Of a stretch of DNA of 11,533 nt, positions 178 through 10,533 are shown one piece after another. Source of the DNA: Alphaproteobacteria bacterium (GTDB lineage: Bacteria; Pseudomonadota; Alphaproteobacteria; UBA3830); assembly GCA_025998595.1 (NCBI GenBank), contig BNWE01000041.1, positions 1 to 11,533 on the forward strand, read 5' to 3'. Within the stretch, counting starts at the first letter, position 1. Every line of letters begins with the position of its first letter. The notes under the pieces were generated by a model. It did not search any database and had not been told where the DNA came from. It saw nothing but the letters and a program-made list of their open reading frames with translations. Both the position numbers and the translations under genes were made by a program.

Positions 178-1488
178 ATGGATACCAAACAATGGATCCA
201 GAGCTCCAAAAGAAGCACTCACGACAACGTTGAATCTCTAGGAAATAGCCCTGCAAAATTAACCAAAGTCCAACCAGTTTATGTTGAAATGTATACGAGA
301 TGCATATACAATGCAAAGGCAATTTGTGGATTGAAGATGACGCTCGCATACAATGAAGAAAGTAGCAAAGCAGTAATCGGAGCCAGCCTCAGACTGGCGT
401 CTGGACCTTGTGCTAAACATCCGAATTGGGTATCTCCAACCGGAGAGCTGGCAGGGCGATCTCACAGATCAGTCGATGGATTATCTATGATTCAGGAAGT
501 ACTTGATCTTCACAGAAAAATTCTATCAATTCCAGACGATTATTATATAGGTATTGTAAGTGCGTCCAGTACTGGCGCCATGGAAACGTTAATGTGGTCT
601 CTTTTGGGAGCCAATGGAATCGATATACTTTCTCACTGTGTTTTCAGTAAGCATTGGGAAAACGACATAGTCAATGAGCTAAAGCTAAAAGATGTTCGTG
701 TATTCAGAGCAGAATTTCCAGAAATGGCAGATACATCAAATGTCGATTTTGATAGGGACGTTGTATTTTGCTGGACTTCAACCACGTCCGGAGTATCTTT
801 CAAAAACGCCGACTGGATAAAATCTGATAGAAAAGGACTCACAATCTGCGATGCTGCATCGGCGATGTTCATGTTTGATCTCGACTGGAGCAAATTAGAT
901 GCTACAGCGTTTTCGTGGCAAAAAGGGCTAGGAGGGGAGGCTGGATTTGGCGTGATTGTGCTCAGTCCGAGGGCAATAGCGCGATTAGAGTCGTACAAAC
1001 CGTCGTGGCCTATGCCGAGAATATTCCGAATAGCAAACGATAAAAAAGTGAACTTCGATGTTTTTAAGGGCTGCACCATAAATACTCCGTCAATGATTTG
1101 TATTGAGGATTTCCGAAATGCGCTGCTGTGGGCAGAAAAAATTGGAGGTATACAAGCTCTTATACAGAGAATAGAAGCGAATTATGCCGTTGTAAGTCAA
1201 TGGGTTTCTCAAAGTTCTATATTTAAATTTTTGGTAGACGAAAAATATCGGGCACATCATATTGCATGCTTCGATATAGTTTCGGAGGAATATCAAAAAT
1301 TATCAGACGCCGATAAGTGGGAGTTTCTGAAAAAAATAATCAGATTCTGTGAGCATGAAAAATCCGGATTCGATTTCATCGGGCATATTCTAACAAAACC
1401 GCATCTGCGAGTATGGTGTGGCCCAACTATTGAAGCAGATGTTCTCAGAAACTTTCTTCCAAAGATCGAAAGTGTCTTGCTAACGTGA
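178..1488 (+). CDS. serC: Phosphoserine aminotransferase, alphaproteobacterial type, with repeat-derived N-terminal insert
   Basis: SerC is a PLP-dependent fold-type I aminotransferase that converts 3-phosphohydroxypyruvate and glutamate to phosphoserine in cytosolic serine synthesis. A related reaction serves PLP synthesis. The conserved core begins at SGPCAKHPNW (about residues 75-84 from this start), followed by GRSHR, the substrate region IVSASSTGAME, TTSGV, TICDAAS and SWQKGLGGEAGFG, whose lysine (about K249) should bind PLP. INTPSM and the C-terminal RVWCGPTIE also fit. The protein is longer than usual because about 43 residues before SGPC (window 272-398) come from the palindromic repeat and replace the usual short N-terminal tail. 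The start is uncertain: ATG 178 is chosen, a GTG at 169 and ATGs at 289 and 337 are alternatives, and none has a good ribosome binding site. The stop lies in a sequence shared with the end of pntB. No other serine gene is nearby. Confidence 0.9.
   Translation: MDTKQWIQSSKRSTHDNVESLGNSPAKLTKVQPVYVEMYTRCIYNAKAICGLKMTLAYNEESSKAVIGASLRLASGPCAKHPNWVSPTGELAGRSHRSVDGLSMIQEVLDLHRKILSIPDDYYIGIVSASSTGAMETLMWSLLGANGIDILSHCVFSKHWENDIVNELKLKDVRVFRAEFPEMADTSNVDFDRDVVFCWTSTTSGVSFKNADWIKSDRKGLTICDAASAMFMFDLDWSKLDATAFSWQKGLGGEAGFGVIVLSPRAIARLESYKPSWPMPRIFRIANDKKVNFDVFKGCTINTPSMICIEDFRNALLWAEKIGGIQALIQRIEANYAVVSQWVSQSSIFKFLVDEKYRAHHIACFDIVSEEYQKLSDADKWEFLKKIIRFCEHEKSGFDFIGHILTKPHLRVWCGPTIEADVLRNFLPKIESVLLT
272..398 (+). 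repeat. Palindromic repeat copy 1, inside serC
   Basis: The strongest part is 340-398, CTCGCATACAATG, then AGTAGCAAAGCAG, then GAGCCAGC...CTGGC. It closely matches the pntB 3' copy on the opposite strand and the bioA copy. The upstream part (about 285-340) aligns more loosely with the first arm and middle of the bioA copy, for example GTATACGAGATG against GTATGCGAGATG. The repeat is read in frame as AYNEESSKAVIGASLRLA. The left edge is approximate. It ends in an imperfect GCCAG/CTGGC hairpin (382-398) directly before the conserved SerC core. Confidence 0.8.
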
Positions 1489-1658
1489 CAATCTATGCCA
1501 GACTGGCGTTTTCTCATGCTGAAGCAACTGCAACATCAAAGATAGTGCTCGTATACAATAGACCTGTTGCAAAAGCCTCTTGAAACCCCTGATTATCAGG
1601 ACTAAAAATCGGCCTACGCAACAGGTCTAATGAAGAAGCTTGCAAAACAGAAAATGCC
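1477..1658 (+). repeat. Palindromic repeat copy 2, at serC 3' end, split by a mini-element
   Basis: From GCCAGACTGGCGTTTTCT (1497) to GTATACAAT (1559), this copy aligns base for base with the pntB 3' copy read on its minus strand, and most differences are transitions. The alignment resumes after the inserted mini-element with GAAGAAGCTTGCAAA and CAGAAAATGCC (1632-1658). The TTGCTAACGTGAC at 1477-1489, which holds the serC stop, matches TTGCCAGCGTGAC at the pntB stop, so the copy may begin there. It is noncoding apart from that stop codon. Confidence 0.75.
1559..1629. mobile_element. 67-bp MITE-like inverted-repeat element
   Basis: GACCTGTTGC at 1561-1570 and GCAACAGGTC at 1618-1627 form perfect 10-bp terminal inverted repeats. 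Both are flanked by TA (1559-1560 and 1628-1629), as expected for a TA target duplication. The centre holds a smaller palindrome, CCTGATTATCAGG (1588-1600). No transposase fits in this length, so it would be a nonautonomous remnant moved by an insertion sequence elsewhere. It interrupts repeat copy 2, whose two halves align with an unbroken copy after pntB, so the insertion came later. The IS family is not identified. Confidence 0.65.
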
Positions 1659-1711
1659 TGTGATGCAATCACCTAAGGTGTGCATCAGGTAAATTTTATT
1701 TAGTTATTTTT
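1657..1711 (+). terminator. Hairpin and T-rich tail downstream of serC, possible terminator
   Basis: TGATGCA (1661-1667) pairs with TGCATCA (1681-1687) around an inner CACCTAAGGTG palindrome (1670-1680), with CCTG/CAGG extending the base. A T-rich run (TTTTATTTAGTTATTTTT) follows after a few bases. The tract is not immediately next to the stem, so this is not a textbook intrinsic terminator, and the hairpin could instead be the outer end of the repeat. Confidence 0.4.
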
Positions 1712-1797
1712 CTGCGTACCATTGAAAACCTGACGTCTGACGCAAAACAAAAAACGATAAAATATTATAAAATGAAAGGCAAAAACAATATTTTTGC

Positions 1798-1826
1798 TTG
1801 ACATTTTATTTTTAACAGTATATAAT
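1798..1826 (+). promoter_or_regulatory. Consensus sigma-70-type promoter for the Nudix gene
   Basis: TTGACA (1798-1803) and TATAAT (1821-1826) are both perfect consensus boxes separated by 17 bp. Transcription would start near 1833, about 25 nt before the start codon. AGGAG at 1848-1852 is the ribosome binding site. This is the strongest promoter in the window by sequence. Confidence 0.8.
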
Positions 1827-1857
1827 ATCATTATGTTTATTCAATATAGGAGAAAAA

Positions 1858-2658
1858 ATGATGAGTAACATAATTAATAAGATAGCGGGCTTTTTGTTTG
1901 CCATAGGCGCGCTATTGAGCTTTTCAGGAGATGTAGAGGCGGCAGTTACTGCCACAAAAAAGTTACCACCAAGTGATACGTGGTTAAATAAAGTAACGCC
2001 TGGAGGAAGACAAGCTGATGTTATTATTTGGAATAAAAGAAACTATTCAGTTCCGGGCCATCCTGAATGGAGTTATTATGTATTATTGGGACAACGCAAT
2101 TACGAAGAGGAAGCCTGGAGTGATTTTGGTGGAGGCGAAGAAGATGGCAGCAACCCTAGTCACATAGACAAAAGAACCAATAAACCAAAAGACGACAAAG
2201 GCCATTTGAGTGTAACTGCCGCACGTGAAGTCTGGGAAGAAACCGGATATATCTTCAATTCAGACGAATTATCTAAATCATCCAAAAAAGGCTTATCTTG
2301 CGATTCTGATCCTGGGCGTCACGCTAAATGCAGAACATTTGTAGCATATAATATAAGAAAGCCAGAAATAATTCCAGGTGAACATCCTGAACATCGCTAC
2401 TATCGGTGGGTTTCTCTAGATGACCTCATTGAGCTTGTTATCAAAAATCCAAATTGTAATTCTATGGGGAAAAAAGGTGATAGGACAAAGCCAGACAAGA
2501 CAGCACCAGTTACGCTTCATTATCTTAATGCTAATAACCAATCAGTAACTGACCAGTTTGAGATTTATGGTGCTTTTCTTAGGACTATTAAGAGTACGGG
2601 AGTTAGGCAAATATTGGAGGCAATCCGCGATGGCAACTTGGATAGTGAAATAAAATAG
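1858..2658 (+). CDS. Secreted Nudix hydrolase-like protein
   Basis: The protein has 266 residues (265 if the second ATG at 1861 is used). Residues 6-22 are hydrophobic and end in a signal-peptidase-like GDVEA-A site at about 28, so export to the periplasm or outside is likely. The mature part contains a Nudix box: FGGGEEDG (90-97) and, after an unusually long spacer, AAREVWEETGYIF (121-133), which supplies the metal-binding REVxEETG core. RYYRWVSLDDL (180-190) is typical of the fold's C-terminal half. Nudix enzymes cleave nucleoside diphosphates linked to another group; the substrate here cannot be told. The long insert in the box, the signal peptide, the very A-rich sequence and the dedicated promoter set it apart from its neighbours and suggest acquisition. 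No partner gene is adjacent; the bio cluster converges on it from the other strand. Confidence 0.75.
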   Translation: MMSNIINKIAGFLFAIGALLSFSGDVEAAVTATKKLPPSDTWLNKVTPGGRQADVIIWNKRNYSVPGHPEWSYYVLLGQRNYEEEAWSDFGGGEEDGSNPSHIDKRTNKPKDDKGHLSVTAAREVWEETGYIFNSDELSKSSKKGLSCDSDPGRHAKCRTFVAYNIRKPEIIPGEHPEHRYYRWVSLDDLIELVIKNPNCNSMGKKGDRTKPDKTAPVTLHYLNANNQSVTDQFEIYGAFLRTIKSTGVRQILEAIRDGNLDSEIK

Positions 2659-2713
2659 CCAATCTCGGTTGGAGAAGGCGGACATTTCTTCTCGCATCTG
2701 ATATTTATCTCAC

Positions 2714-2733
2714 GGGCTCCCCAATGGGGGCCC
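2714..2733. terminator. GC-rich hairpin between the convergent Nudix and bioA genes
   Basis: GGGCTCCCC (2714-2722) and GGGGGCCC (2726-2733) form a strong stem with an AAT loop, abutting the bioA stop at 2733-2735. It could stop transcription from either side, but neither strand has a T run after the stem, so its role is inferred from position. Confidence 0.35.
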
Positions 2734-4172
2734 TAGGGCTTCAATAGAGACAAACATTTTTCGTAGGCTTCGTTCAATTGATCCGCCGTTGTACTGTATG
2801 GAGGCATGAAATATATCACGTTTCCCAATGGTCTAATCATGAAACCTGCATCTAGCATTTGGCAAATGTGTCGATCTCTTTCCTGATAATTTTTTACCCG
2901 AAACGCAGATATGGTTCCCAGATACCTAATTTCGTCCAATAAATCGTTGTCCACTAATTTCTCAGCCCAGTGTTTGTGCGTATTTTCTATTGCTCGAATG
3001 TTGTTCTGCGTGTCGTCTGAAAATAAAATATCAAATGAAGCTAGTGCTGCCGCGCATCCCAGTGGATTGGCCGTGTAGGAATGTCCATGCACAAACGCCT
3101 GCTTCATAGAATCCCCTAGAAACGCCTCAAATACCTCGTTGGATGTTATCGTCAGCGACATTGGAAGAAATCCGCCGGTCAGCCCTTTAGAAATACACAT
3201 TATATCCGGTGTCCGAGCCGGACTGGCGTTTTCTGCTTTGCTACCTTCTGAATTGTATGCGTTCTGTGCTTGCAATGTCGAAGTAGTTTCAGCAATGGTT
3301 GCACCACGAGCGTCTACTCTTATTGAAGCGCCTTCGACATTGCAATCACATCTCGCATACCTTTCCGTTGGTAGCGAAGCAGAAAACGAGTCCAGCATCA
3401 TGCTGGTGTGAGCAAACAGTTTTCCGGTTCTGTAAAAGCCAGTCATTACCTCATCGAAAATCACCAATATGCCATTTTGCTTGGCCAAATCGTATATTTT
3501 TTGCAAAAATTGCGGACGAATCATTCTCATACCGCCAGCTCCCTGTATCATCGGCTCAAGAATGATCGCTGCAACGTTTTGGCCGTGTTTCTCTAGACAT
3601 TGCTCGTATTCTGCCAGTGCGTTTTGCTCTTTTCCTTCGATGTTTTTGTCTCCAATCCATGTGGACGGCCACGGCATTTTGAAGCTATCGAAACAAATGC
3701 CGGAAAAAGTCTCGTGATATCCGGTTCCCACACTCATGGCTCCAACTGTGTCTCCGTGGTATCCTCCCTGAAAGCTGATGAATTTATTTCTGCCGGTAAC
3801 CCCTTTATTTATCCAGAATTGATAGGACATCTTCAGAGCGATTTCCACTGCCGTTGAGCCGTTATCCGAGAAGAAAAAGCGACATAATTTTGGAGATAAA
3901 ACCGTCGATAATTTTTCGCACAACTCTTCCGCAGGATCGTGGGAAAAACCCGCAAAGATCACGTGCTCCAATTTTTTTGCCTGCTCGTATATCGCTTCGG
4001 CGATTTTCGGATGGGCGTGTCCGTGTAGATTGACCCACCAGCTGGAAATTAAGTCCAGATATTTATTGCCGGCTTCGTCGAAAACATAGGAACCGCATCC
4101 GCGCACTATCTTGATACTGTCGGCGGCGGTCTTTTCCTGCGTAAAAGGCCTCCATATTTTTGTACTTTTCAT
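2733..4172 (-). CDS. bioA: Adenosylmethionine-8-amino-7-oxononanoate aminotransferase with in-frame palindromic insert
   Basis: BioA is a class III PLP aminotransferase that makes 7,8-diaminopelargonate from KAPA using S-adenosylmethionine as amino donor. Family marks in order: IWRPFTQEK (6-14), LISSWWVNLHGHAHP (41-55), FSDNGSTAVE (101-110), GGYHGDTVGAMSVG (136-149), FDEVMTGFYRTG (239-250), the PLP lysine in CISKGLTGG (K329), FVHGHSYTANPLGCAAA (360-376) and FMIRPLGNVIYFMPPY. At 479 residues it is long for BioA. Residues about 256-319 are a repeat-derived insert between KLFAH and TPDIMCISKG, and without them the length is about 415, which is normal. The insert lies just before the catalytic lysine segment but keeps the frame, and the rest is intact, so the enzyme is probably made. 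The start overlaps the bioD stop by ATGA, with GGAG upstream, indicating translational coupling. It is the last gene of the cluster. Confidence 0.95.
   Translation of the reverse strand: MKSTKIWRPFTQEKTAADSIKIVRGCGSYVFDEAGNKYLDLISSWWVNLHGHAHPKIAEAIYEQAKKLEHVIFAGFSHDPAEELCEKLSTVLSPKLCRFFFSDNGSTAVEIALKMSYQFWINKGVTGRNKFISFQGGYHGDTVGAMSVGTGYHETFSGICFDSFKMPWPSTWIGDKNIEGKEQNALAEYEQCLEKHGQNVAAIILEPMIQGAGGMRMIRPQFLQKIYDLAKQNGILVIFDEVMTGFYRTGKLFAHTSMMLDSFSASLPTERYARCDCNVEGASIRVDARGATIAETTSTLQAQNAYNSEGSKAENASPARTPDIMCISKGLTGGFLPMSLTITSNEVFEAFLGDSMKQAFVHGHSYTANPLGCAAALASFDILFSDDTQNNIRAIENTHKHWAEKLVDNDLLDEIRYLGTISAFRVKNYQERDRHICQMLDAGFMIRPLGNVIYFMPPYSTTADQLNEAYEKCLSLLKP
3217..3406 (-). repeat. Palindromic repeat copy 3, full two-armed form inside bioA
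   Basis: This is the longest copy, about 190 nt. Two arms face each other: GTTTTCTGCTTTGCTACC (3228-3245) pairs with 3370-3387 at 17 of 18 positions, GTATGC (3255-3260) with GCATAC (3355-3360), and TTGCAATGTCGAAG (3270-3283) perfectly with 3332-3345. About 48 nt separate the arms. The outer end is the perfect mini-palindrome CCAGCATcATGCTGG (3392-3406). It is fully open in the bioA frame, which ends STLQAQNAYNSEGSKAENAS, and also largely open on the opposite strand. Confidence 0.85.
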
Positions 4173-4804
4173 AATAACTCCAACATGTTTTTTAACATGG
4201 ACGGAAATACGGTACTCCGCAACGTGTTCCCATCGATTTTTTCTAGTTTATGCAGTTCAGCAAAAACCATAATCTTTGCAAATTTTTCAATGGCCTGAAC
4301 GTTATCTGGATTTGCTTCTCCATTTACAATTACTCCGAGCAGCGGCATACCTCTTCTACGAAGGGCTTCGATACTGAGACAGGTGTGGTTAATGGTTCCC
4401 AGTCCACTTCTCGCCACTAGAATTATCGGCAATTTAGTGCTTTCGATAAAATCGATGTAAAACATATCATCGTTTAGTGGAACATATAGCCCACCGGCCG
4501 CTTCAATAAGTAGGTTTTTATCCTGAGGAATTATTATTTTCGATATATCGATTTTCCTATTTTCCCGAGCAGCTGCCATATACGGAGAAAGCGGATTTCT
4601 AAATACGTATGATTCCGGATGGATCTTTGCATCAGTAAGACTTCTAACATATGAAGAATCAGAGCTTACACTAGCTCCGAACTCATCAACTATACAACCA
4701 GTCTGCACTGGCTTCCAGTAGCTGCAAGTGATGTGTCGACATATCCAGACGGAAACAGTTGTTTTTCCAACGTCTGTGTCCGTTCCAACTATCCAAAATC
4801 GCAT
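4169..4804 (-). CDS. bioD: Dethiobiotin synthetase
   Basis: BioD carboxylates 7,8-diaminopelargonate with CO2 and ATP to close the ureido ring of dethiobiotin, in the cytosol. The ATG at 4804 is chosen because the family's N-terminal P-loop, GTDTDVGKT (residues 7-15), begins right after it, and AAGGAA (4809-4814) lies just upstream. A longer open frame to 4945 would add 47 unrelated residues overlapping bioC. Other marks are YWKPVQTG (29-36), holding the catalytic lysine K31, and IEAAGGLYVPL, the usual EGAGG motif with Ala for the first Gly. At 211 residues it is slightly short but complete. It has no repeat insert, unlike the bio genes on both sides. Its stop overlaps the bioA start. Confidence 0.93.
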   Translation of the reverse strand: MRFWIVGTDTDVGKTTVSVWICRHITCSYWKPVQTGCIVDEFGASVSSDSSYVRSLTDAKIHPESYVFRNPLSPYMAAARENRKIDISKIIIPQDKNLLIEAAGGLYVPLNDDMFYIDFIESTKLPIILVARSGLGTINHTCLSIEALRRRGMPLLGVIVNGEANPDNVQAIEKFAKIMVFAELHKLEKIDGNTLRSTVFPSMLKNMLELL

Positions 4805-4883
4805 TTTATTCCTTCTTACTTGATAATACGGTGGTTGTACCACAGGCATTTCATTAAATAGCGCATGTGCTACAAGCACCAAT
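4805..4883 (-). other. bioC-bioD gap with two matched 13-bp palindromes
   Basis: GTGGTTGTACCAC (4831-4843) and GTGCTACAAGCAC (4867-4879) each have 5-bp arms and a 3-nt loop and are 36 bp apart. Between and over them, on the minus strand, TTGGTG and TATTTA with a 16-bp spacer could form a weak internal promoter. This is the only real gap in an otherwise tightly packed cluster. Any regulatory role is inferred. Confidence 0.3.
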
Positions 4884-5708
4884 TTAATTCGATAATACGC
4901 CGAAAAAAACTCTATAGGAAGTCGCCAACGATCCACTTTCTGCACTTGTTGCAGGATGAAGTGCTCGCAATATCGAAGCGGACTCTTTATAAGAGTAAAC
5001 GCCCGTGCGGCACGTACTTGCTCCTATGAGTTTCAAATATTTTACAAAATCCAAAGCAGATTTAAATGTTAACGGATATGTTTTTTCCTCCGCAATGAAA
5101 TAATTCGCGAGATTGCGCAAACTCATCATTTGATCGAAAGATTTGTATGGCATGCGATGCGGTTCTATGCCATGAGCTTCCAGTAGATCGTACCATTCGT
5201 CAAATGTTCCGAGAATCGGCAGAGCGAAGGCAATTGTACGCGTATATTTCAAATTTTCGGCGATAAACGCTTCAATATCGCGAAACCACTGCATTGCCAT
5301 ACTGGAGATCAATACATCGAAGCCGCGAATGGGAAAATCTTCGGCGTTTGCATTTATATAAGACACACGGCCATGATATTTTTCCTTGGCATGCGCTAGC
5401 ATTTCAGAGGAAATATCCATAAGAGTCAGCGACACATCTGGAAATGCCTTGAGTAATTCTTCCGACAAAATCCCCGTTCCAGCCCCCACATCAACCAGCT
5501 TGAAGCTGGACCCGTTTTCTTCTTTATTATAATCTGCATGGTATGCGTGATGTGCTTGCAATGTCGCGTCTGAATAAATGCCAGTGACCGGCGCCATCTT
5601 CAAAATGGATATTAAATGCCGCGCTATTTCGACATGCGTAGACGCCGACGAATCGTAGGTATCGGCGGCCTTACCAAATCTCAATTTTACCAGGTCACTG
5701 TAGTGCAT
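4884..5708 (-). CDS. bioC: Malonyl-[ACP] O-methyltransferase with palindromic insert
   Basis: BioC methylates the free carboxyl of malonyl-ACP with S-adenosylmethionine, disguising it so that fatty acid synthesis can build the pimeloyl chain of biotin. It opens with the BioC-type FGKAADTYDSSASTH (11-25). The SAM-binding motif I is LVDVGAGTG (71-79), followed by LTLMDISSEML (95-104), ANAEDFP (120-126) and DVLISSMAMQWF (131-142). The end, LATSYRVFFGVL, is also family-like. Residues about 44-70 are a repeat-derived insert just before motif I; the 274 residues drop to about 248 without it, the normal size. ATG 5708 is chosen, overlapping the end of the bioH-like gene by 14 nt. A TTG at 5714 is the alternative. 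The insert sits where the N-terminal helices meet the Rossmann core, which may tolerate a loop. Confidence 0.92.
   Translation of the reverse strand: MHYSDLVKLRFGKAADTYDSSASTHVEIARHLISILKMAPVTGIYSDATLQAHHAYHADYNKEENGSSFKLVDVGAGTGILSEELLKAFPDVSLTLMDISSEMLAHAKEKYHGRVSYINANAEDFPIRGFDVLISSMAMQWFRDIEAFIAENLKYTRTIAFALPILGTFDEWYDLLEAHGIEPHRMPYKSFDQMMSLRNLANYFIAEEKTYPLTFKSALDFVKYLKLIGASTCRTGVYSYKESASILRALHPATSAESGSLATSYRVFFGVLSN
5495..5579 (-). repeat. Palindromic repeat copy 4, inside bioC
   Basis: Read on the bioC strand, it contains GACATTGCAAGCACATCACG, GCATACCATGCAG and AAGAAGAAAACG, then the mini-hairpin CCAGCTT/AAGCTGG (5495-5509). It matches the second arm of the bioA copy, most clearly in the shared TTGCAAGCACA. 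Its peptide, ATLQAHHAYHADYNKEENGSS, parallels STLQAQNAYNSEGSKAENAS in BioA, in the same frame. Confidence 0.8.
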
Positions 5709-6387
5709 CCACAAACTTCATGATTTCGTCATAAACCGCCTTTGCATTTTTATATCCCAAACAGTGGCCGGGACACTCCAAAAACTTCACTTTATCAGGA
5801 AAATCACCTTCGACGACGGCAGCATCAAGTACCGGATCATCTCGAGTGGCAAGAATCATGTGCTCCAGACCAGCTGGAACGAAATACTTCAGCCTAAGCT
5901 TTTTTAAATCCTCCAGAAGAAGATCGTAGTTCAATTGCTCCAAGCTGATTTCCGGCGAATCCTGGCGAAATTCCCTCCAAACCTCAACGGGATATTTCTC
6001 AAATGCCGCAATCGTTTTTTCCAGAATCATGGATCGTTTTCTGTGCAATTGCGGATCGTCAGACAGAAAATTCACAAAAGACTGCAAACCAACAATCGCT
6101 CTCAGATTTTTTTCTTTTTCCAGTAATTTTACAAAACCGATGGAATGCCCAATCCCAATCCACTCCAACGTGACGATGGTTGCACTATGGGCGTTTTCTG
6201 CTTCACTACCAGCAGCAGGGTACGCAGGGAGTTCTGCAGCATTAAAACGCGATCCAGGAAAATAAACGGATCCAACGTCACGTTGGTCTAGAAAACGACA
6301 CGGAAAATCCTTGAACAACGGAGCTAAATTATCCCAATATGAGCTATCGTATCCCCATCCATGATGAAAAACGAATCCCAAAGACAT
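5695..6387 (-). CDS. bioH: Alpha/beta hydrolase, probable pimeloyl-ACP methyl ester esterase (BioH-like), with palindromic insert
   Basis: This is a small alpha/beta hydrolase of 230 residues. FHHGWGYDSSYW (7-18) is the oxyanion-hole strand-loop, GIGHSIG (78-84) the nucleophile elbow with S82, TRDDPVL (181-187) the acid (D183 or D184) and CPGHCLG (205-211) the histidine H208. Position directly before bioC suggests it removes the methyl group that BioC adds, releasing pimeloyl-ACP; that role is an inference from context, and the gene symbol is given on that basis. The start at 6387 is chosen because AGGAG lies 6 nt upstream and the rlmB stop is 1 nt away. A longer open frame to 6453 would run into rlmB. 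Residues about 49-71 are repeat-derived and fall in the loop before the nucleophile strand. Confidence 0.8.
   Translation of the reverse strand: MSLGFVFHHGWGYDSSYWDNLAPLFKDFPCRFLDQRDVGSVYFPGSRFNAAELPAYPAAGSEAENAHSATIVTLEWIGIGHSIGFVKLLEKEKNLRAIVGLQSFVNFLSDDPQLHRKRSMILEKTIAAFEKYPVEVWREFRQDSPEISLEQLNYDLLLEDLKKLRLKYFVPAGLEHMILATRDDPVLDAAVVEGDFPDKVKFLECPGHCLGYKNAKAVYDEIMKFVDALQ
6175..6243 (-). repeat. Palindromic repeat copy 5, inside the bioH-like gene
   Basis: On the plus strand, GGCGTTTTCTGCTTCACTACC matches the arm of the bioA copy (GGCGTTTTCTGCTTTGCTACC) with two changes. ATGGTTGCAC beside it also occurs in the middle of the bioA copy. The encoded peptide AYPAAGSEAENAHSAT fits the family pattern in the same frame. 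This copy is shorter and lacks the terminal CCAGC/GCTGG mini-hairpin. Confidence 0.7.
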
Positions 6388-6388
6388 A

Positions 6389-7135
6389 CTATACTCCTTT
6401 GTTTCTCTGGCGGAAACTTTCATATAAAGACACAGTTGCGGCCTGAGCGGCATTCAGCGTAGTGAATTGCCCGATTTCCGGTAATTTCACCAGAAAATCG
6501 CAGGATTCCTTGGTCAATCGTCGCATCCCCTCCCCTTCGCTTCCTACAACAAATATAAATTTATCGTTCAGCTGAATTTCGTCCAGATTTTTTTCGGATC
6601 TTTCGTCAAGTCCTAGACACCAAAAACCGTGTTTTTTCAAGAAGTTAATGCTGTGAACGAAATTTACTACGCGAATCAGCGGAACGTTTTCCAACGCTCC
6701 GGACGCCGCCTTCGCCATTGCCGGAGTTAAATCCGGACTGCCGTTTTCCGTAACAACGACGGCGCGTGCTCCAAATACAGCAGAAGCCCTCAGGATACTG
6801 CCGATGTTTTGGGGATCCGTAACCTGATCCAGAAAAACCAGCGGACGCTTATCGGACTCATCTTCCACGGACTCTTCCAGCGAGTATTCCGGCAAATTCT
6901 TTACATAAGCCGCGCATCCCTGGTGTGTTGTTTCATTTCCAAAAGTAGCTGCAAAGAAGTCTCGACTAACTACCTCGAATCTTATGGATTTGTCGGCACG
7001 TTCGCATTCATCCAGAAAATTTCGACACGATTCCAGAACGACAACGCGATCAAATTCCCTTTCGGGATTCGCCAAAGCCGCCTTTAGAGCGTGCTTCCCA
7101 TAGATCCACATATGATTTTTTATCTTTTTTTTCAT
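6389..7135 (-). CDS. rlmB: SpoU/TrmH-family rRNA 2'-O-methyltransferase, RlmB-like
   Basis: This is a 248-residue SPOUT methyltransferase; RlmB methylates the ribose of G2251 in 23S rRNA. The N-terminal substrate-binding part begins MWIYGKHALKAAL (9-21) and includes HQGCAAYV (71-78). The knot domain has motif 1, DQVTDPQNIGSILRA (103-117), with the catalytic asparagine and arginine, then ENGSPDLTPAMAKAASGA (130-147), motif 2 FVVGSEGEGMRRL (195-207) and motif 3 TTLNAAQAATVSLYE (225-239), where family members usually have SLNVS. The start at 7135 is chosen for a GGAA upstream; ATG 7111, which matches the usual family start, is the alternative. It is the first gene of the cluster, only 1 nt before the bioH-like gene, so the biotin genes probably depend on its promoter. 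A TrmH tRNA methyltransferase role is less likely. Confidence 0.88.
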   Translation of the reverse strand: MKKKIKNHMWIYGKHALKAALANPEREFDRVVVLESCRNFLDECERADKSIRFEVVSRDFFAATFGNETTHQGCAAYVKNLPEYSLEESVEDESDKRPLVFLDQVTDPQNIGSILRASAVFGARAVVVTENGSPDLTPAMAKAASGALENVPLIRVVNFVHSINFLKKHGFWCLGLDERSEKNLDEIQLNDKFIFVVGSEGEGMRRLTKESCDFLVKLPEIGQFTTLNAAQAATVSLYESFRQRNKGV

Positions 7136-7168
7136 ATCATTCCGCTGACAAGACCAAATACACCACTG

Positions 7169-7197
7169 TTAATAGCAGGACTACGGCACGTTTGCAA
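7169..7197 (-). promoter_or_regulatory. Promoter for the rlmB-bio cluster
   Basis: On the minus strand, TTGCAA (7192-7197) and TATTAA (7169-7174) are separated by 17 bp and would start transcription near 7161, about 25 nt before rlmB. The match is good but not perfect. It would drive all five genes. Confidence 0.5.
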
Positions 7198-7235
7198 CAG
7201 ACGACTTCAAATTCTCCGAGAGGAATCAGGTCCGT

Positions 7236-7455
7236 TTAATTTTCCATAATTAGAGAAAGAGCTTTCTGTTGAGATATCGAGTTGTAGAAGCGCATTTGCG
7301 ACACAGTCATCTTCAATTTACAGGCTAATCCGATAAGAAGATTCCGCAAAGCAGCCATAATTTGCGGCGAATTTCCATTGCGAATTGTACGTCGATCTTC
7401 GTGAAAAATCATGTCACGAACTCAATGAATGCCTCTGGCCTGACGGATTCCGCGG
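7236..7455 (-). pseudogene. Decayed ISAs1-type transposase, C-terminal fragment
   Basis: On the minus strand, 7236-7412 encodes 58 residues containing FHEDRRTIRNGNSPQIMAAL and RNLLIGLACKL and ending ALSLIMEN. This resembles the C-terminal end of ISAs1-family (H-repeat-associated) DDE transposases, which carry HWVRDVTFxED, R-x-G-N-x-P-Q and LRNL. Just upstream the frame continues VRD, then meets TGA where the family has a tryptophan (IH*VRD), consistent with a TGG to TGA mutation. Further upstream the similarity fades. No complete element or end repeats are visible, so this is an inactive remnant. Confidence 0.55.
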
Positions 7456-7658
7456 ATCCTCTATACTTGAAAATATTTCACTCAACTTTGACATAAAACC
7501 TCAATTACTTAAAGCTTCCTCAATTTACATCAATTGTTAGCATATTCCGGGAATTAAATAGCCATGTTCTATGTTTCGAAACAAAAAAATATTCTTGTCA
7601 TTCTGGAGCTTGATGTGGTATTATATCCTGTAGTGTGTAAATTATTGTAGGGTTTGAG
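7456..7658 (+). promoter_or_regulatory. Intergenic stretch with promoter for the Rpn-family gene
   Basis: TTGTCA (7595-7600) and TATTAT (7619-7624) with an 18-bp spacer form a reasonable sigma-70-type promoter, about 27 nt before the start region of the next gene. The rest of the stretch is AT-rich, with no gene that I recognise. Confidence 0.45.
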
Positions 7659-8477
7659 ATGGGGGCTGTTGTTGGTGATTTGGTATTTAAATTAATTTTT
7701 AGTGATTCTCGCAGTAAAAAAATGCTAATTCATCTGTTGAATAGCATCATTGTGGGGGCAAAAGATAATCCAATAGTGGATTTGCAGATTCGAAAAACAG
7801 AGCTGTTACCGGAATATTTTGGCGGCAAAGAAGCACGTATAGATATTTTAGCCGAAGCGTCCGATAAGCGCCGTGTAAATGTGGAGATCCAACGACAAAG
7901 TCAAAGTTATTTTATCAAACGCTCTCTATTCTACTGGGCTGAGATATATTTTCAGCAGCTGCAAAAAGGTGGGGAGTTCTATGAGCTTTGCCAAACTATT
8001 TGCATAAATATACTCGAAGAAAATATATTTAAAGATGATCGTTTCTGGCATACCTACCATATGAGAGAGGATGAGACACATGAGCTTTTGACGGATGTGG
8101 AGGAAGTCCACTTTTTGGAATTGACTAAGTTAAAGGAGTACCAAGAGGATAATCCAGTTACTTGGTGGATTGAGTATATCAAGAATCCGCATTCGAAGAT
8201 TGTTGATAAGATAGGCGAATTTGAGCCGATAATAAAGGAGGCAGTGAAAATGTTTGATATTGTATCGTCAGATCCAGCTACACAAGAGCTTATTCGAATT
8301 AGAAATGATGGAGAGCATGAGTATAACTCTGCTATTGGAGAAGCCGAAAGAAAAGGTGAAGCAAGAGGCAGAATGGAAATGGCTCGAAACTTGCTGCAGG
8401 CTGGAGTCAGTGCTGAAATTGTAGCGAGTTCTTCTGGACTTTCTACTTCTGAAATCCAATCGCTGAAGAGGCCTTGA
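7659..8477 (+). CDS. Rpn family recombination-promoting nuclease / PD-(D/E)XK transposase-like protein
   Basis: This 272-residue protein is of the Rpn/PDDEXK_2 type, a family abundant in intracellular alphaproteobacteria. It opens GDLVFKLIFSDSRSKKMLIHLLNSII, the usual F-K-x-IF...LL-N helix. The nuclease core is ARIDILAEASDKRRVNVEIQ (about 58-77), supplying the Asp and the E-x-Q that act as metal ligands. It continues with RSLFYWAEIYFQQLQKGGEFYEL and QTICINILE, both characteristic. The C-terminal tail GEARGRMEMARNLLQAGVS...GLSTSEIQSL (about 236-271) is the charged helix and GLS-x-x-E-I motif common to these proteins. It appears full length and undamaged. The start follows a weak AGGG. It probably moves or promotes recombination as a DNA endonuclease. 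No end repeats are visible around it. It lies where pntAA would be expected. Confidence 0.85.
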   Translation: MGAVVGDLVFKLIFSDSRSKKMLIHLLNSIIVGAKDNPIVDLQIRKTELLPEYFGGKEARIDILAEASDKRRVNVEIQRQSQSYFIKRSLFYWAEIYFQQLQKGGEFYELCQTICINILEENIFKDDRFWHTYHMREDETHELLTDVEEVHFLELTKLKEYQEDNPVTWWIEYIKNPHSKIVDKIGEFEPIIKEAVKMFDIVSSDPATQELIRIRNDGEHEYNSAIGEAERKGEARGRMEMARNLLQAGVSAEIVASSSGLSTSEIQSLKRP

Positions 8478-8486
8478 GGACTTACG

Positions 8487-8528
8487 CAGGAACAAGTTAT
8501 TCTTGTGCTGGTCTTTAGCGTTTTTTTT
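8487..8528 (+). terminator. Possible intrinsic terminator after the Rpn-family gene
   Basis: CAG-ACAAG (8487-8495) can pair with CTTGT-CTG (8502-8510) around TTATT, with a small bulge. A run of eight T follows at 8521-8528, about 10 nt after the stem. The spacing is longer than ideal. TATACT (8531-8536) could be a -10 box for pntAB but no good -35 is seen. Confidence 0.4.
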
Positions 8529-8593
8529 GATATACTGTTCCGTCGAATCATGGAGTGGTTCTGTGCTTTTCTATCTTGATCTAGGAGAGATTT

Positions 8594-8956
8594 ATGGATT
8601 GTTATTTCCACGCTTTTTATAGTCATCTCAATGACCTTATGTTTTTACACCATATTGCCATGACTTCGCCCGAATGTGCGTCGTCTGGAATTCACGGGCT
8701 GACGGTGTTTGTGCTGGCCTGTTTTGTTGGCTACTACGTTGTTTGGAGAGTAACTCCGGCACTGCATGCTCCACTTATGTCAGTCACAAATGCGATTTCC
8801 AGTGTCGTTATAGTTGGAGCGCTACTGGCCGCCTCCCAAAACGTATATGGATTTTCCAGAATCTTCGGATTTTTCGCTATAGTGTTGGCATCGATAAATA
8901 TTTTCGGTGGTTTTATCGTAACCCATCGCATGCTTGATATGTTTCGCAAAAAATAG
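8594..8956 (+). CDS. pntAB: Proton-translocating NAD(P) transhydrogenase, membrane subunit alpha-2
   Basis: This 120-residue membrane protein is the separate small subunit (part of domain II) of the three-subunit transhydrogenase. It works with PntB to move protons while hydride passes from NADH to NADP. Family marks are [20 protein letters not shown] (about 36-55) and [23 protein letters not shown] (about 56-78), followed by a third membrane segment, [19 protein letters not shown], and the [10 protein letters not shown] tail. AGGAGA (8583-8588) precedes the ATG by 5 nt. It is followed 8 nt later by pntB. The NAD-binding subunit gene pntAA, normally just upstream, is absent from this window. 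Confidence 0.92.
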
Positions 8957-8964
8957 GTAATTTA

Positions 8965-10341
8965 ATGGTAGTTGACGTTCTTTATCTAATTGCAGCAGTG
9001 TGTTTTATATTCGCCCTAAAGGGATTATCCTCTCCACAATTCGCTTCCCGCGGGAACTACTGTGGAATCGCTGGAATCGTGCTAGCGTGTGTAGCAACCT
9101 ATATCTCCGTCGGTATTTCCGGAGTGTTTTATACGCTCATCGCAATTGCGATTGGCGGTGGAATAGGAGCCCATATAGCAACTAATGTCTCTATGACGTC
9201 TCTTCCCCAAATGGTGGCTGGCTTTCATAGCCTTGTAGGACTTGCAGCGGTATTGGTAGCTTTTTCCGCCTGTTTCGCTCCGGAATTATTCGAAATAGTC
9301 GGACTCAACGGCATATATAAATCCAGCTTAATGGAAATGGGACTTGGATCAGCCATAGGAGCCGTGACATTTTCCGGATCCGTCATTGCATTCCTGAAAC
9401 TAGATGGACGCTATAAAGGAAACAGCGTTCCTGTATTTGTTAATGCTTTTCTGCTATCGTCCATAATCTGCCTATTGACATATTTCGTGACCACAGAAAG
9501 CACATCTACCTTCATTTTACTGACGTTTTTGGCATTTGTTTTTGGCGCAACATTGATAGCGCCCATTGGCGGAGCTGATATGCCAGTGATCGTATCCATG
9601 CTGAACTCCTATTCCGGATGGGCAACGTCCGGCATTGGATTTACCCTGCACAACGACCTTCTCATAATTACTGGAGCAATCGTTGGATCCAGCGGTGCTA
9701 TACTCAGCTACATCATGTGCAAAGGCATGAATAGATCACTTCTGGATGTCATCTTTGGCGGTGGACAATCGGATTCTGCCAATAAAAATGACGGTTCCTC
9801 AGATGCATCCAAAACTTACAAAAATGGATCTGCGGAAGATGCCGCTTTCATATTAAAAAATGCCAGTTCAGTCATTATTGTTCCCGGATATGGAATGGCC
9901 ACATCTCAGGCACAACACGCACTGAAGGAAATGGGGGAGCTTCTTCAAAAAGAAGGCGTAAAAGTTAAATACGCCATTCATCCGGTGGCAGGACGTATGC
10001 CGGGTCATATGAATGTCCTGCTGGCGGAAGCAAGCGTTCCCTATGAAGATGTATGCGAATTGGATGAAATAAACCGAGATTTCGTGTCTTGCGACGTCGC
10101 CTATATCGTCGGTGCAAACGATGTCACGAATCCAGCTGCTAAGCACGATACTTCCAGTTCCATCTACGGAATGCCAATTCTGGAAGTCGGAAAAGCAAAG
10201 ACAGTTCTATTCCTAAAACGATCCATGGGAGCCGGATACGCAGGAGTCGATAATGAATTGTTCTACGCCCAAAACACCATGATGCTGCTGGGAGACGCCA
10301 AAAAAACAACCGAAGATATAATAAAGTGCTTGCCAGCGTGA
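8965..10341 (+). CDS. pntB: NAD(P) transhydrogenase subunit beta
   Basis: PntB carries most of the proton channel and the NADP-binding domain III. The first roughly 265 residues are a chain of hydrophobic membrane segments, including the conserved HSLVGLAAVLVA and IGGADMPVIVSMLNSYSGWA. After a hydrophilic linker (about 272-290), domain III shows VIIVPGYGMATSQAQ (GYGMA at 308-312), IHPVAGRMPGHMNVLLAEA, LDEINRDF, VIGAND-like VGANDVTNPAA, GMPILEV and FLKRSMGAGYAG. At 458 residues it is full length. AGGTAA precedes the ATG, and the gene is coupled to pntAB. The last residues and the TGA lie in the start of a palindromic repeat, so that element supplies the stop codon. Function of the complex needs pntAA from elsewhere. 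Confidence 0.95.
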   Translation: MVVDVLYLIAAVCFIFALKGLSSPQFASRGNYCGIAGIVLACVATYISVGISGVFYTLIAIAIGGGIGAHIATNVSMTSLPQMVAGFHSLVGLAAVLVAFSACFAPELFEIVGLNGIYKSSLMEMGLGSAIGAVTFSGSVIAFLKLDGRYKGNSVPVFVNAFLLSSIICLLTYFVTTESTSTFILLTFLAFVFGATLIAPIGGADMPVIVSMLNSYSGWATSGIGFTLHNDLLIITGAIVGSSGAILSYIMCKGMNRSLLDVIFGGGQSDSANKNDGSSDASKTYKNGSAEDAAFILKNASSVIIVPGYGMATSQAQHALKEMGELLQKEGVKVKYAIHPVAGRMPGHMNVLLAEASVPYEDVCELDEINRDFVSCDVAYIVGANDVTNPAAKHDTSSSIYGMPILEVGKAKTVLFLKRSMGAGYAGVDNELFYAQNTMMLLGDAKKTTEDIIKCLPA

Positions 10342-10434
10342 CGCTGGCTCCGCTTTCTGCTTTGCTACTGGTTGCATTGTATGCGAATGCTATATTCAGC
10401 ACTGAAGCTGTTTCAGCAAGAGAAAATGCCAGTC
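10332..10434 (-). repeat. Palindromic repeat copy 6, at pntB 3' end
   Basis: The copy opens with the perfect mini-hairpin GCCAGCGTgACGCTGGC (10332-10348), which includes the pntB stop, and continues GCTTTCTGCTTTGCTAC and ATTGTATGCGAATGC, ending AGAAAATGCCAGTC. Read on the minus strand it matches serC copy 2 along its length and serC copy 1 from CGCATACAATG to the end. It lies antisense to the gene and is noncoding, yet the minus strand would still read FAYNATSSKAESGASVTLA. The centre is the short form, lacking the extra middle and arm present in bioA. Confidence 0.85.
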
Positions 10435-10533
10435 AGATTCGGGAATCGTCATGCTAGTGCAAGCGCTATTAATGATGAATCGTTTTTTCGCTGTTTCAAT
10501 GGTAAAAAAAAGAAAATGTGCGTGCGCAAGCAC
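10435..10533 (+). other. Short intergenic spacer after the pntB repeat
   Basis: I recognise no gene. A small GATTC/GAATC inverted repeat (GATTCGGGAATC) lies at the left end and a run of six T in CGTTTTTTCGC further on, but no convincing terminator. GTGCGTGCGCAAGCAC (about 10518-10533), just before the promoter -35 box, has matching GTGC/GCAC ends and could be an operator. Confidence 0.3.

Follow-up and report, generated by a model that had tools for sequence, protein, structure and literature searches.

Rickettsia palindromic elements (RPEs) were reportedly described by Ogata et al. in 2000 and 2002, and Wolbachia palindromic elements (WPEs) are likewise protein-coding palindromic repeats in an intracellular alphaproteobacterium. 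Here we examine an 11,533-nucleotide stretch of DNA from an Alphaproteobacteria bacterium (assembly GCA_025998595.1, contig BNWE01000041.1; "the window" below means this whole stretch), in which an earlier note, made from the DNA letters alone, had seen a family of palindromic elements inserted in frame into serC, bioA, bioC and a bioH-like gene. The unit is about 123 bp long, or about 190 bp when it forms an inverted duplication, and we are highly confident that it is a dispersed, non-autonomous, palindromic mobile element that inserts both between and inside genes.

In the portions of the literature cited here, RPEs are given as 105-146 bp long and as read in frame within Rickettsia genes, their target duplication being entered as unknown (PMC2229807), the first report from R. 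conorii comprises ten families and 44 copies (PMC10969869), and the sites of RPE4, 6 and 7 are described as common to relatives but strongly diverged (PMC3767692). WPEs are named in passages of PMC3767692 and PMC3733652, and the latter also portrays REP elements as hairpin units with GTAG or CGTC tags and RAYTs, with intragenic copies in some species.

The present element resembles RPEs in being a dispersed palindrome of 100-150 bp that lies in frame inside unrelated conserved genes, with insertion shown by orthologues, and the strong divergence of shared RPE4, 6 and 7 sites recalls the remodelling that we describe below. It differs from them in matching none of the RPE1-RPE5 models, in a host that appears to be Holosporaceae-related, in being coding-competent either way and in a self-complementary 15-bp end with compensatory changes. 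With WPEs, to which we liken it by description and not by sequence, it shares protein-coding palindromes in an intracellular alphaproteobacterium, although the order differs. A literature search gave no report of such elements in Holosporales among the matches listed, and a Holosporales review (PMC11909080) contains no word starting with "palindrom".

Copies in the window and anatomy of the unit

All six copies named in the earlier note (in serC, after serC, in bioA, bioC and the bioH-like gene, and after pntB) were found by a profile search, and a seventh place, in the 3′ part of bioC, extends that list by a weaker copy. The window has 8 profile matches at these 7 places, with E from 1.2e-28 to 8.6e-8; where a long copy has two arms, each is counted separately here and in all totals below. 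Since the profile was built from 98 copies, possibly with those of the window among them, the window E-values are partly so by construction. As a lone query, the bioA copy retrieves two further copies in the window, that in the 5′ part of bioC at 9.9e-9 and that of pntB at 3.7e-5, and backwards-read DNA of the window and of the two related genomes introduced below gave 0 profile matches at E<=0.01. The copies, together with one nested repeat of a different family, are:

311..397, minus strand: copy in the 5′ part of serC (40.7 bits, E 1e-10; in-frame peptide AYNEESSKAVIGAS)
1481..1663, minus strand: copy at and beyond the serC 3′ end (match 1559-1481, 45.5 bits; extension to 1663 by eye)
1560..1628, no strand assigned: nested 69-bp TA-flanked repeat of a different family, resembling a miniature inverted-repeat transposable element (MITE), with ends TAGACCTGTTGC...GCAACAGGTCTA
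3213..3408, minus strand: long inverted-duplication copy inside bioA (3406-3294, 98.6 bits; 3224-3298, 55.4 bits; in-frame peptide TSMMLDSFSASLPTERYARCDCNVEGASIRVDARGATIAETTSTLQAQNAYNSEGSKAENASPART)
4930..5017, plus strand: weaker copy in the 3′ part of bioC (31.2 bits, E 8.6e-8; by alignment also in BioC of both related genomes)
5495..5587, plus strand: copy near the bioC 5′ end (55.9 bits; in-frame peptide ATLQAHHAYHADYNKEENGSS)
6166..6286, minus strand: copy in the bioH-like gene (41.9 bits; in-frame peptide PAYPAAGSEAENAHS)
10333..10455, plus strand: copy at the pntB 3′ end (80.2 bits)

In SerC, BioA, BioC and the BioH-like protein alike, the host frame yields a common peptide (AYN..SKAVIGAS, AYNSEGSKAENAS, AYHADYNKEENGSS, AYPAAGSEAENAHS), which confirms the earlier proposal that the copies in these four genes are read in the same frame. 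The copy after serC is split by the nested 69-bp repeat. In the long form of about 190 bp in bioA, one arm is present twice, inverted, with a short middle between, and the RNA fold of this form has a z of -9.15 against shuffles.

The left end of the short unit is a self-complementary 15-mer, RCCARCGTGACGYTGG, that forms a hairpin closed by a TGA loop; on the right stands the inverted counterpart of this 15-mer, and a second hairpin sits near that right end. Both hairpins show compensatory changes: in the end hairpin, pair 4:12 is AT in 36 copies and GC in 29, and pair 6:10 is GC in 60, TA in 7 and AT in 3 (n=76 for each), and pairing at these positions, as at 103:109 and 104:108 of the second hairpin (n=59), exceeds that in all 2000 column shuffles. 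The remaining pairs of both hairpins were barely variable or not above shuffles, and two further candidate stems gave nothing. The boundary of the element is sharp, with a purine at position -1 in 66 of 75 copies. In size and structure it is thus an RPE-like unit of 123 bp with covarying hairpins, the short unit as a whole being no stabler than its shuffles.

The TGA stop codons of serC (1486-1488) and pntB (10339-10341) are the TGA within the element's end hairpin, and at these two places the element may have cut back the end of the gene or taken its place.

The many further dispersed copies that the earlier note had named as support for its reading are present in a related draft genome, Alphaproteobacteria bacterium PG1894_49 (G001), of which 1.09 of 1.6 Mb were analysed: there are 156 non-overlapping profile matches at E<=0.01, 113 of them at E<=1e-6. 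Together with 11 matches in four loci of a second draft relative, PG1894_72, and the 8 in the window, the total comes to 175, with 130 at E<=1e-6. The copies are genic as well as intergenic, and 63 distinct ones lie inside open reading frames (ORFs) with at least 50 residues open on either side. An exact DNA pattern found ten loci in a one-genome-per-species collection, all in PG1894_49 and PG1894_72; in viral_contigs, a search with one exact pattern gave 0 matches.

In the order to which PG1894_49 belongs, a sequence-only model has matches at E<=1e-4 in 6 of 49 genomes (at most 75 candidates scored per genome); besides PG1894_49 itself these are G006, with 12 matches, and G064, G029, G062 and G031, with one each, all of them weaker relatives of the family. 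The G064 copy is in frame, and the G031 match is weak (E 4.6e-5). In G006, a consensus of 9 roughly aligned copies has stops in both frames that are open in PG1894_49 and leaves two other frames open. Short matches in G004 and G005 comprise 26-27 bp of the end hairpin only, and we did not take them as copies. PG1894_49 was the only one of 289 genomes to match at E<=1e-6 in a class-wide sample, which was shallow (12 candidates scored per genome). Its GyrB is closest to that of Holosporaceae metagenome-assembled genomes, at 75-80% identity among the named sequences of the best 120 matches, and the host group is, as judged from sequence, Holosporaceae-related. Rickettsiales and Holosporales are held to be of independent origin in the part of PMC6447387 cited here.

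Reading frames inside host genes

Only two of the six frames of the consensus lack stops, one per orientation, and the codon phase at its ends is identical in both orientations (NCC ARC GTG ACG YTG GNN). The element is therefore coding-competent in both orientations, and with the same end phase either way a copy could be inverted without breaking the gene that holds it. We collected 69 ORF rows that span a copy with at least 50 residues on each side; 6 copies occur in more than one row, and 3 rows have no scorable frame. One of the two open frames is used in 57 of the 66 scored rows, almost evenly between sense (29) and antisense (28); 52 of these rows come from PG1894_49, 3 from the window and 2 from PG1894_72.

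Independent support for in-frame reading is that the host ORFs are real genes. Thirteen of 20 scanned host ORFs match an NCBIfam model at 1e-60, and in 8 of the 20 at least one model match crosses the element (RbbA-like protein, LeuRS, acetolactate synthase, formate-THF ligase, TruB, MutS, MurE and KdtA). For acetolactate synthase and KdtA the best model ends at the element and another model crosses it. In three more of the 20, MurJ, Lnt and FolC, the model match starts or stops at the copy; the PolA copy falls between the exonuclease and polymerase matches, and the RNase HI ORF has its copies upstream of the domain.

Among the window proteins, SerC is matched by NCBIfam serC_2 from residue 75 onwards only, and in BioA the family match splits, leaving 66 residues outside it. 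An AlphaFold model of window BioA (predicted template modelling score 0.78, mean predicted local distance difference test score, pLDDT, 75) has pLDDT below 50 at residues 263-306 and 308-312; these belong to the insert, and the low values fit a flexible loop. As for the element peptides, 35 of 41 in-frame ones were aligned, and 19 were scanned against NCBIfam and 16 against Pfam; the best Pfam match had an E of 0.027 and was found for one member only.

Presence, absence and remodelling in relatives

Gene counterparts in PG1894_49 at 70-88% DNA identity make the window a third, related genome, and the comparison demonstrates insertion at two places, the bioA 5′ end and serC. At the former, PG1894_49 has a clean insertion of a copy, with no profile match at that place in the window. 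At the latter, PG1894_49 has no profile match to the window's 5′ copy in serC or in the 230 bp before it (the gene is 70% identical), and a different copy lies further upstream. The pntB 3′ end, where the PG1894_49 alignment breaks at the copy and a 12.4-bit match is found that may be a remnant, is weaker evidence of insertion. The site of the large bioA copy holds in PG1894_49 only a stretch of about 50 bp with a 14.2-bit match, and the bioH-like site holds a shorter stretch with an end hairpin that was recognised by eye only, there being no profile match. In BioC, the insert sits at one place in all three relatives and is missing from P0004-P0006 (245-247 residues).

In-frame insertion in conserved genes thus goes together with absence from orthologues. 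The earlier note had proposed comparing host proteins with uninterrupted forms, and such forms were found in BioC P0004-P0006, in serC of PG1894_49 and in bioA of the window, each of the last two without one of the copies. It had also named two outcomes that would overturn it, a lack of further copies and the same segments in place in distant orthologues; instead, further copies exist and some relatives do without the segments. These relatives exclude, for practical purposes, the idea that we are looking at native domains or loops of the host proteins that are similar by coincidence, to which we give next to no credence. Some sites are indeed common to three relatives (BioC) or two (the BioH-like gene), as native segments would be, but the same DNA recurs in unrelated proteins, outside long ORFs too and in both orientations, and neither P0004-P0006 nor the split BioA family match accommodates it.

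Several sites are common to relatives yet remodelled. At the bioC 5′ site the flank is the same and the orientation of the copy in PG1894_49 is opposite to that in the window and, judged by the peptide, in PG1894_72; at a murJ site PG1894_72 has the long form and PG1894_49 the short one. At a further site, in a stretch about 95% identical between PG1894_49 and PG1894_72, 18 of 42 bp differ inside the copy as against 3 of 255 around it. This one case suggests patch exchange between copies, with re-insertion an alternative. No perfect patch donor was present in the DNA examined, the best being 90% identical over 61 bp for the PG1894_72 patch and 88% over 59 bp for that of PG1894_49. Single cases thus suggest that copies are flipped, and patches replaced, in place.

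The genes of the window are serC, a NUDIX gene, bioA, bioD, bioC, the bioH-like gene, an RlmB/TrmH-type methyltransferase gene, a PDDEXK_2 transposase gene (7659-8477), a short membrane gene and pntB; bioD and bioH were assigned from position and Pfam or a weak match only. DNA identity with the PG1894_49 genes is mostly 81-88%, and neither the NUDIX gene nor the last gene, which is cut, has a counterpart in the 1.09 Mb examined. DNA similar to the PDDEXK_2 transposase gene occurs in two PG1894_49 loci, L061 and L058. At gathering level, Rfam gave no match on the window and, on the four loci, two tRNAs and a piece of a group II intron.

Companion repeats and movement of the element

The RPE1 model, TIGR01045, matches PG1894_49 above its cut-off at C8:20371, C44:6469, C55:2667 and C9:12536, in open frames. 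It matches 9 of the 49 genomes of the order, 6 of them over the cut-off, as against 0 of 14 controls; the 43 matches in G002 are all below it. By this model, the Holosporaceae-related order has an RPE1-like family. Most of the RPE1-like elements that we looked at have TA-flanked inverted ends, and some in PG1894_49 start with TAGACCTGTTGC, as does the 69-bp repeat, whose end pairs, 68-69 bp apart, number 29 in the PG1894_49 DNA examined and 1 in the window. This hints that the RPE1-like elements sharing these ends are MITEs of a TA-targeting transposase. Both companions live in the same host as the present element and differ from it in their unrelated sequence and TA-flanked ends.

At about 4549-4690 of L006 (PG1894_72), an RPE1-like stretch follows a copy of the window family, and PG1894_49 has other sequence there. 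A second short repeat-like stretch, GGAGCGAAGCGACG...GGGATCCAG, adjoins element copies at L006 2380-2450 and L110 2140-2220; we take it to resemble the CGTC-tagged repeats of other bacteria.

Could the present element be another member of a known RPE family, carried into Holosporaceae-related bacteria? Behaviour and size class are the same, as far as the cited portions of PMC2229807, PMC3767692 and PMC10969869 go, and an RPE1-like family lives in the same genomes, but the models speak against it and we consider it very unlikely. None of the 4 RPE1 matches in PG1894_49 overlaps a copy of the present family, whose profile finds nothing in them at E<=10. The RPE2, RPE3 and RPE4 models have no match in PG1894_49 at E<=1, and RPE5 has one, at E 0.61 and below its cut-off, whose overlap with copies was not compared. 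Nor does any NCBIfam model match the 19 antisense element peptides at E<=1. The known families RPE1-RPE5 are rejected by these searches, in a comparison that covers those five and not RPE6-8 or WPEs. Within that range no named RPE family matches, in line with the earlier note, which could not assign the sequence to one, and the RPE-like behaviour that it described is borne out by the many dispersed copies, the in-frame host genes and the relatives lacking some of them.

As to what moves the element, a hairpin-recognising enzyme (HUH/Y1, IS200- or REP-like) and a DDE transposase seem to us about equally likely. A classical MITE, whose CCARCGTGACGYTGG ends a DDE transposase would recognise and whose movement would leave a target duplication, is possible but doubtful. 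The terminal inverted repeats, the lack of autonomy and the high copy number agree with it, as do the TA-flanked inverted ends of the co-resident 69-bp repeat and RPE1-like family, but the ends of the element are themselves hairpins with compensatory changes, and we saw by eye no target duplication at the 14 copies having both ends. The sole clean empty site, at the bioA 5′ end, lies in A-rich DNA where a duplication is ambiguous. Nor was a repeated transposase recognised by eye in the longest ORFs of 17 high-copy segments of the PG1894_49 draft, where the model search covered the Y1 family and not DDE families. No autonomous insertion sequence with these ends was recognised among the repeats of the 1.09 Mb.

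A REP-like or IS200-like element, with a HUH/Y1 transposase working on single-stranded hairpins, is an equally tentative proposal. It would account for conserved, covarying hairpins and for the missing target duplication, and PG1894_49 does hold a remnant of an IS200-type TnpA. This remnant, however, is a broken, decayed fragment and the sole Y1 match in the genome; about 100 bp separate it from a copy, perhaps by coincidence, and we reject it as a proven mover. In addition, the target tetranucleotide is not conserved, and the end of the element, with its consensus RCCARCGTGACGYTGG and unconserved flank, bears neither the GTAG nor the CGTC tag that PMC3733652, in the part cited, gives for REPs. 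At 123 bp as against 20-40 bp, without such a tag and with no intact RAYT gene in the PG1894_49 draft beyond the partial IS200-type match, the element also stands apart from REP elements proper.

Several observations pull against a mobile, protein-embedded element. No mobilising enzyme could be tied to it in the 1.09 Mb of PG1894_49, and the 75 copies show no target preference beyond the purine at -1, though movement of the IS200 or REP type should leave one. The column shuffles take no account of kinship among copies. RNA folds of the 123-nt consensus and two single copies are no better than shuffles (z -0.86, -0.80 and -1.84), and RNAalifold found no consensus pair in 30 copies, for which reason our search model R1 uses sequence only. 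All 4 sites that could be aligned between PG1894_49 and PG1894_72 are common to both, so recent movement between these two is not shown. An ORF spanning a copy cannot contain a stop, and part of the frame preference is therefore built in; where no long ORF spans the copy, the two frames are also open more often than the rest, in 43 and 34 of 70 copies as against 7-20 for the other four. Of the 14 in-ORF copies with both ends intact, 9 have a length offset from the model that is divisible by three and 5 do not, and 9 scored PG1894_49 rows switch frame inside the copy, so that a single exact phase at both ends is not universal. Finally, that in-frame copies should be translated as part of the host proteins is a prediction from DNA alone.

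With these points in mind, we picture the mobile element as follows. A separate enzyme would move it in trans, and an insertion that falls in a tolerated codon phase within a flexible loop would be kept, with the host protein still working. Once in place, copies would be inverted, shortened or doubled and would swap patches with one another; each of these changes is seen in one or a few cases. The element would thereby act as a protein-embedded selfish repeat, RPE-like but of independent sequence. The earlier note had suggested a protein-embedded selfish element; its first half stands, with in-frame copies and relatives that lack some of them, while we infer the selfish character.

What the data suggest to be new is the readability in both orientations, the presence of an RPE1-like family in the same order and, from single cases, flipping and patch replacement. 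In the literature sampled here, protein-coding palindromes belong to Rickettsia and Wolbachia, and how they move is left unexplained. With the present family, selfish palindromes that code for protein may have been invented a second time, independently, in intracellular alphaproteobacteria of an order other than Rickettsiales and in a form open in either orientation in the same codon phase, a proposal to which we give somewhat less than an even chance. If it is true, copies could flip in place and swap patches and still add new peptide to essential enzymes. A dense, unrelated family together with three related genomes offers presence/absence pairs as well as shared but remodelled and flipped pairs at single sites, and such pairs would allow one to test how the element moves, whether selection on the frame acts in the element or only in the host, and by what route proteins gain new segments.

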